NCBI GenBank assembly: GCA_027020665.1
Contig: JALUVJ010000108.1
Coordinates: forward strand, 1 to 39,672
Source: Nitrospira sp.
Lineage (GTDB): Bacteria > Nitrospirota > Nitrospiria > SBBL01 > JAADHI01
Direction: 5' to 3'
Length of the DNA: 39,672 bases
Shown: positions 36,555 to 38,603 of the stretch, piece by piece
How the letters are laid out: each line of letters begins with the position of its first letter
Numbering within the stretch: the first letter of the stretch is position 1
Position numbers and translations under genes: made by a program
Notes under the pieces: generated by a model
Database searches by the model: none
What the model was told of the DNA's origin: nothing
Seen by the model: only the letters and a program-made list of their open reading frames with translations

Positions 36555-37238
36555 ATGAATGAAATAATCCAACAAATAAGCATCATGGTGTTGCCGCTGA
36601 TTTTTGCGGTGACGCTGCACGAAGCAGCGCATGCCTGGGTGGCGGATAAAAAAGGAGATCCGACTGCGCGCCAGTTGGGGCGGATTACGATGAATCCCTT
36701 GTCTCATATTGATCTCTTCGGAACGGTGATTATTCCGCTGTTGATGTTTGTGTCGACCGGATTTATTTTTGGATACGCGAAGCCGGTTCCGGTGAATCCC
36801 CTTAATTTGAGGCGCCCCAAAGAAGATATGGCCTGGGTTGCGGCGGCCGGACCGGGCATGAACTTGATCCTGGCGGTCATCAGCGGCATTTTTTATCGCC
36901 TGCTTTCCGATCCGGCTTTTATGGGCGGAGGCGGGCTCATGGGGAGCGGGGCCTCTTTTTTTCTGTTGCCTCTGCGTGAAATGTTTCGATTTTCCGTGCT
37001 GATTAATGTTGTTTTAATGATTTTCAACTTGATTCCCATCCCTCCGTTGGATGGGGGACGGGTCTTGGTCGGGCTTTTGCCAAGGGCGCAATCACGCCTG
37101 ATTAGCAGTATTGAACCCTACGGCATGTTTGTCTTGGTCTTTGTTGTTTTTCTGGATCCTTTTGGCCTTATGAGAAAAATTGTGTGGCCGCTGGTTTCAA
37201 TTGTATCTCACTACATTTTTGGGGATTTTATCATTTGA
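36555..37238 (+). CDS. Site-2 protease-like M50 family membrane metallopeptidase
   Basis: A 227-residue polytopic intramembrane zinc protease of the short, PDZ-less M50B type common in bacteria. HEAAHAW gives the HExxH zinc motif inside the first hydrophobic region (about residue 22), and NLIPIPPLDGGRVL supplies the third ligand Asp. About five or six TM segments are present, including the AAAGPGMNLILAVISG segment. ATG 36555 has AGGT 6 nt upstream and lies 12 nt after pycB, so it is probably co-transcribed. Substrate unknown; no anti-sigma factor gene is adjacent. Confidence 0.93.
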   Translation: MNEIIQQISIMVLPLIFAVTLHEAAHAWVADKKGDPTARQLGRITMNPLSHIDLFGTVIIPLLMFVSTGFIFGYAKPVPVNPLNLRRPKEDMAWVAAAGPGMNLILAVISGIFYRLLSDPAFMGGGGLMGSGASFFLLPLREMFRFSVLINVVLMIFNLIPIPPLDGGRVLVGLLPRAQSRLISSIEPYGMFVLVFVVFLDPFGLMRKIVWPLVSIVSHYIFGDFII

Positions 37239-37257: not shown

Positions 37258-37434
37258 TTAATCATGCTCCGGTTCGGCCGAGCCGTGGCGATGTACAACC
37301 TTATCTTCGTCAAAAATTTCCTGCATTTCTTCGGCAAGGCTTTCTGCTTCGTTTGGAATGCGGCGAAGTGGAATCTTAAATACGCTCTTTTCTTTCTCTT
37401 TTTTCTCTTCGCTTGGTTTTTTATCCTCTGACAT
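37258..37434 (-). CDS. Small hydrophilic protein of 58 residues (function unknown)
   Basis: Below the size cutoff of the ORF track, but well supported: GGAGGG sits 8 nt before an ATG that opens 58 codons ending in TAA. The product begins MSEDKKPSEEKKEKEKSVFK, continues IPLRRIPNEAESLAEEMQEIF, and ends GSAEPEHD. It is very charged, has a Lys/Glu-rich disordered start and a probable amphipathic helix (about 25-45), and contains no Cys, Trp or TM segment. It converges on the M50 protease gene (19-bp gap) and is divergent from moaA. A weak TGAACA-N18-TATATT lies upstream on its strand. I do not recognise the family. The two track ORFs here (37180-37431 plus, 37197-37475 minus) are shadows of this frame. 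Confidence 0.7.
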   Translation of the reverse strand: MSEDKKPSEEKKEKEKSVFKIPLRRIPNEAESLAEEMQEIFDEDKVVHRHGSAEPEHD

Positions 37435-37530
37435 TTATTTTCCCTCCGGAGATTAATTTGTTTGCAATATAGCACACCTTGTGTTTAAATGTTCAGACTA
37501 CTATGATCCTGGAGTTTTTCTTGAGTTGCC

Positions 37531-37607: not shown

Positions 37608-38603
37608 ATGGGCGCACTGGTTGATCCATATCAAAGATCCATTACATATATGAGAGTTTCTGTCACAGATCGTTGTAATTTAAGGTGTGTTTATTGTATG
37701 CCGGAAGAGGGCTTGAACTGGACGCCTACGGATGAAATTCTTTCTTACGATGAACTACTTCGCATTATTCGTGTTGCTGCAAAAAGAGGTCTTCAAAAAG
37801 TTCGGATTACAGGGGGTGAGCCTCTTGTGAGAAAAGGTGTCATTGGTTTTATTGATCAAATGAATCAGATCCCGGGTATTGAGGAATTGGCGCTCACGAC
37901 AAATGCCGTTTTTTTAAAGCAAATGGCGGGAGATCTTTACAAGGCGGGTTTAAGACGGATCAATATCAGTCTGGATTCGCTCAATCCGAAAACCTTTGCA
38001 GAAGTGGTCCGGCGCGATATTTTTGATATGGTTTGGGAAGGGATTGAAGAAGCCGAGCGTGTGGGCTTTAAACCTTTGAAGATCAATGTGGTGCTTCAAC
38101 AAGGTGTAAATGATCATGAAGTGGCCGATTTTGTCAATTTGACGCGGCGCAAGCCCTACCACGTGCGTTTCATTGAGTACATGCCTTGCGCCAACTGGGA
38201 CACCTGGGTCAAAACCTATAAACCTTTCCAGGCCGTTGTGGATGAAGTCGAAGATAAGTTCGGCGAGTTGATTCCGCTTAATGGTGCGAATGAAGGAAAC
38301 TCCGGTCCTGCGGAAAACTTCAGGTTGCCGGGTGCGCCGGGCGTGGTGGGTTTTATTCATGCCGTAAGCCATGATTTCTGTGATACGTGTAATCGTGTTC
38401 GTCTTACAGCCGACGGTCAGATTCGCCCCTGTCTTTTCTCGGAAATTGCGGTTGATTTCCGTGATGCGCTGCGTAATGACTGTAGTGACGAAGAAATTGC
38501 AGGCTTGCTGGATCAGGTCTTGTTTGTCAAACCGGAATATCATGAGTTGGATATGATTGCGGAGCAGAAAAAATTGACGAACATGGTGAGTATCGGTGGT
38601 TGA
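37608..38603 (+). CDS. moaA: GTP 3',8-cyclase MoaA (radical SAM)
   Basis: A 331-residue radical SAM enzyme catalysing the first step of molybdopterin synthesis, GTP to 3',8-cyclo-7,8-dihydro-GTP. The SAM-cluster motif is CNLRCVYC near residue 25, followed by RITGGEPLVRKG and NISLDSL. The second [4Fe-4S] cluster that binds GTP has its ligands in FCDTCNRVRLTADGQIRPCLF. The C-terminal GG, needed for activity, is present (VSIGG). ATG 37608 has GAAGGAGG 4 nt upstream, so the track's TTG start is rejected. It is a single-gene unit: no moaC, moeA or mobA in the window. It implies molybdenum or tungsten enzymes elsewhere in the genome. Confidence 0.97.
   Translation: MGALVDPYQRSITYMRVSVTDRCNLRCVYCMPEEGLNWTPTDEILSYDELLRIIRVAAKRGLQKVRITGGEPLVRKGVIGFIDQMNQIPGIEELALTTNAVFLKQMAGDLYKAGLRRINISLDSLNPKTFAEVVRRDIFDMVWEGIEEAERVGFKPLKINVVLQQGVNDHEVADFVNLTRRKPYHVRFIEYMPCANWDTWVKTYKPFQAVVDEVEDKFGELIPLNGANEGNSGPAENFRLPGAPGVVGFIHAVSHDFCDTCNRVRLTADGQIRPCLFSEIAVDFRDALRNDCSDEEIAGLLDQVLFVKPEYHELDMIAEQKKLTNMVSIGG

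Follow-up and report, generated by a model that had tools for sequence, protein, structure and literature searches.

Several described systems resemble, each in part, the gene reported here. Hsp70 and Hsp90 end in EEVD, an acidic C-terminal carboxylate peptide. Protein tags of the Pup/UBact kind, which are joined to their targets via the C-terminus, have about 60 residues, with a disordered and charged N-terminus, a helical middle and a conserved C-terminal end. In the Enterobacteriaceae, a set of lineage-restricted intergenic small proteins is described in PMC11188072. Here we compare with these systems a 58-residue protein encoded in the window, by which we mean the whole analysed stretch of 39,672 nucleotides from Nitrospira sp. 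The gene, its neighbours and the signals around it are the following.

36555..37238, plus strand: M50 family peptidase, convergent neighbour, not linked to the small gene across the class
37258..37434, minus strand: small protein gene, 58 aa, of a class-wide Nitrospiria family (conservation, pN/pS)
37261..37305, minus strand: near-invariant C-terminal tail DKVVHRHGSAEPEHD, residues 44-58 (alignment)
37306..37350, minus strand: predicted amphipathic helix EAESLAEEMQEIFDE, residues 29-43 (model and hydrophobic moment)
37375..37434, minus strand: N-terminal 20 codons, variable, charged and probably disordered (alignment and model)
37442..37447, minus strand: Shine-Dalgarno GGAGGG, 7 nt before the ATG (sequence; AAGGAG or GAGGAG equivalents in relatives)
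37466..37474, minus strand: predicted extended -10 element TGcTATATT, 40 nt upstream of the ATG, with similar sequence in three congeners
37490..37495, minus strand: predicted weak -35-like element TGAACA, 18 nt from the -10 element
37608..38603, plus strand: moaA-like radical SAM protein, divergent neighbour, not linked to the small gene across the class

The 58-residue open reading frame at 37258-37434 had been proposed in the initial annotation without a strand; it exists, and lies on the minus strand, running from an ATG at 37434-37432 to a TAA at 37260-37258 and encoding MSEDKKPSEEKKEKEKSVFKIPLRRIPNEAESLAEEMQEIFDEDKVVHRHGSAEPEHD. It converges with the M50 gene, with 19 nt between the two stop codons, and diverges from moaA. 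It does not fill most of the interval between the M50 protease stop (37238) and the moaA ATG, as had been stated, but only about half of it (177 of 366 bp). The length of the frame is in itself not rare, as ATG-initiated ORFs with 58 codons or more turn up when the 366-bp interval is shuffled (first-order; 17.6% of shuffles), which would leave room for a chance ORF whose conservation is due to an RNA or to the opposite strand; shuffled intervals with both such an ORF and a GGAGG site amount to 0.1%. This reading is refuted by the class-wide match at the protein level, the low pN/pS, the retention of start and stop codons and the absence of any Rfam match at the gene, and we give it practically no credence. 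The reality of the gene is settled by conservation and not by ORF length, and we regard it as virtually certain that the predicted ORF is a genuine gene.

Searched as a single sequence, the protein hit 53 of 58 relatives at E-values up to 1, and nearly all of these hits were strong. A profile built from 36 copies was then searched against 396 genomes sampled across the phylum Nitrospirota and matched 158 of them, all among the 164 genomes of the Nitrospiria, with no match in the 232 other sampled genomes of the phylum. Records with names among the relatives include N. moscoviensis, N. defluvii, N. lenta and Manganitrophus, which identifies the class as Nitrospiria; single records under the names Nitrospinota and Nitrosospira probably represent misassigned bins. 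By these searches, nearly every genome of the Nitrospiria encodes the protein, and within the sampled phylum it is restricted to this class. Within the family of the window, pN/pS is 0.20-0.47 for the whole gene and 0.08-0.26 for the last 38 codons; synonymous sites are close to saturation. These values, well below 1, show that the gene is coding and under purifying selection, and close relatives keep the frame open with its start and stop, so that two of the checks proposed in the initial annotation, the synonymous-to-nonsynonymous ratio and the search for frame-breaking changes, speak for the gene. The family is usually single-copy. In G194 a second copy (C2:91334-91486) lies close to the first and is broken by a stop, and G335 has a second copy on another contig (contigs C58 and C80).

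Six Nitrospiria genomes had no profile match. In G002, a contig end truncates the M50 homologue and the search for moaA gave nothing, so the small gene probably belongs to a stretch that is missing from the assembly. In G005 (99% complete), M50 and moaA are both intact, on separate contigs and with other neighbours; no ORF resembling the small gene is present in the ~516 bp after M50, and neither profile nor pattern search found it elsewhere in the genome. True loss at a rearrangement is the most likely explanation, and the absence of the gene from a near-complete genome implies that it is not strictly essential. The remaining in-class misses, G258, G350, G352 and G354, are 88-94% complete. 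A pattern search with the tail returned nothing in nine genomes without a profile match.

The initial annotation described a Lys/Glu-rich disordered start followed by an amphipathic helix, and the composition pattern was rightly recognised. The N-terminal 20 residues contain 7 K/R and 6 D/E and are modelled with low confidence (pLDDT about 52-65); across the family this Lys/Glu/Pro region drifts in sequence and length. A short I-P-L segment connects it to the helix, whose hydrophobic asymmetry (moment 0.52, shuffle mean 0.23, p = 0.007) indicates that it is amphipathic. The structure model consists of this one helix (pTM 0.30) and gives no docking geometry. No transmembrane segment or signal peptide is apparent on inspection of the 58 residues, and the protein is presumably expressed and soluble. 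The tail that follows the helix, with the consensus E-D-x-V-x-H-x-[HQ]-G-x-x-E-P-E-x-D-stop, is the most conserved and probably the functional part. Among about 92 distinct C-termini, E-16, H-11, G-8, E-5, P-4 and E-3 never vary, D-1 is present in all but one (which has E), D at -15 and V at -13 are nearly fixed, and position -9 is either His or Gln, the latter in Manganitrophus and several other copies. Since the conserved motif runs right up to the stop codon, we infer that the free C-terminal end may matter. The initial annotation had overlooked the importance of this tail, the spread of the family through the whole class and the differences in start signal between lineages.

The strong ribosome site of the initial annotation was confirmed as GGAGGG at 37447-37442, with a spacing of 7 nt to the ATG, and a ribosome site is also present in the lineage of the window and in several other families. 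In four congeners the -10 region is alike. The predicted extended -10 and weak -35 elements plausibly make up a promoter. Beside this -10 element, at 37474-37485 of the minus strand, lies CACAAGGTGTG, a short inverted repeat of the form CACA-N3-TGTG that is also found in the congener L006 and is a possible operator. Manganitrophus-type copies have a TATAAT about 37-41 nt upstream together with a ribosome site. Of 87 Nitrospira-type loci, 84 have a TGTATACT box (TATANT; consensus gTGTATACT, e.g. L011, L017, L033) 6-10 nt upstream of the ATG, with a distance of 6 nt in 52 of them; the first count is an upper estimate, because loci with more than one candidate ATG were assigned the start that favours the box. 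At about 1% of the other (background) ATGs in the same loci, TATANT occurs at such a spacing. With the box so placed, the 5' end of the transcript would coincide with the ATG or lie only a few bases away from it, and the Nitrospira-type mRNA is probably leaderless. The start signal thus likely differs between lineages, a leader with a ribosome site in some and a likely leaderless start in others, and such a shift within one orthologous gene would offer a clean case for studying the evolution of start signals.

The neighbours of the small gene are alike within families and different between them. M50 and moaA flank it in the family of the window, and direct adjacency to M50 is limited to that family and a few relatives at the order level, while a PRC-barrel protein is the neighbour in Manganitrophus and a DnaJ-domain protein in another family. 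In the Nitrospiraceae and a sister family, a Cys-pair protein is encoded directly upstream (e.g. L083:6242-6601 and homologues; 119 aa, several Cys-x2-Cys pairs, no Pfam match). This protein was the closest hint of a partner that the neighbourhood offered and was rejected, as other genomes encode its homologues away from the small gene and the genome of the window yielded none, so that the adjacency is local. No neighbour is common to all families. The downstream gene has the opposite orientation at the majority of loci in the window's family and in several Nitrospiraceae, which together with the varying neighbours argues against roles in cis and for a product that acts in trans. A role as a substrate of the M50 peptidase (site-2 protease) or as an anti-sigma factor, which would call for a transmembrane segment, is disfavoured, as inspection of the 58 residues reveals no hydrophobic stretch.

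We favour, tentatively and at slightly less than an even chance, a soluble adaptor or regulator acting in trans; the suggestion of the initial annotation that such proteins may be regulators or partners is a reasonable guess. In this model, the disordered N-terminus would be a tether whose sequence is free to vary. The amphipathic helix would fit into a groove on a conserved partner, and this partner or another one would recognise the acidic tail, which contains His and ends in a free Asp carboxylate. Because the gene is kept in Nitrospira relatives, Manganitrophus and other relatives in varied contexts, the partner would be a core protein of the Nitrospiria. A more specific version, in which a hitherto undescribed Nitrospiria core protein binds a universal machine (RNA polymerase, ribosome or chaperone/protease) via the helix and the terminal-carboxylate motif and acts as a regulator specific to this class of nitrifiers and manganese oxidisers, is speculative and on balance unlikely.

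The main rival is a small protein that carries, buffers or senses metal, with the metal ion bound by the tail. The invariant or near-invariant His, Asp and Glu of the last 16 residues would suit such a role, and several of the host organisms are metal-dependent chemolithotrophs, but the second His is replaced by Gln in Manganitrophus and several other copies, the protein has no Cys, and no metal transporter or metalloenzyme recurs alongside the gene across families; we consider a metal-binding function improbable. The concentration of conservation at the C-terminus just before the stop recalls leader or arrest peptides, which act in cis and control the following gene through their own translation. 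At most loci of the window's family and at those of several Nitrospira relatives, the gene that follows points the other way and so offers no target for such control, no conserved same-strand gene lies directly downstream, and neighbours vary between families, which makes this reading very improbable. A toxin or antitoxin, or a gene of phage origin, could likewise be small, charged and partly disordered; however, no conserved partner gene travels along, the gene is usually single-copy and near-universal in the class, and the protein has no match in phages or plasmids, so that we hold this to be more improbable still. A soluble adaptor or regulator acting in trans thus remains our preferred reading.

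Nitrospira oxidise nitrite and perform complete ammonia oxidation, and Manganitrophus make their living from manganese. Usually single-copy, near-universal in the class and without a match elsewhere in the sampled phylum, the gene can serve as a class marker, and its product is a good candidate for physiology specific to the class. Peptide pull-down with the short, near-invariant C-terminus offers a direct way to search for the partner.

Searches for known relatives gave no significant match to Pfam or NCBIfam models for 36 family members, nor to PDB sequences for the small protein. Literature searches turned up no description of the family, and a keyword search of a comparative Nitrospirales study (PMC12342949) yielded no occurrence. 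On present sequence evidence, the protein is a new, unnamed orphan family of a familiar kind. With its length, charged and disordered start, helix and conserved C-terminus, it resembles a Pup/UBact tag, and the genome of the window does encode Pup-ligase homologues. However, its tail ends in EPExD and not in GGE or GGQ, no model of either database matched it, and its gene is on contig C108, whereas the Pup-ligase cluster is on contig C91. In that cluster, a separate Pup-like protein of 66 aa ending in GGE is encoded at L170:6598-6798 (G000, contig C91, minus strand), between two Pup-ligase homologues and with proteasome-subunit-like ORFs; a Pup-proteasome system thus appears to be present, and since its Pup-like protein is encoded separately, the small gene is not Pup, an identity to which we assign only a very slight probability. 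The EEVD end of Hsp70 and Hsp90 shares with the tail an acidic C-terminus with a terminal Asp carboxylate, which we take as a lead only, as no sequence relation to the small protein is shown. The small proteins of the Enterobacteriaceae (PMC11188072) are similar in being short, intergenic, without known domain and found by conservation, whereas the Nitrospiria protein is conserved class-wide and carries a near-invariant C-terminal motif.
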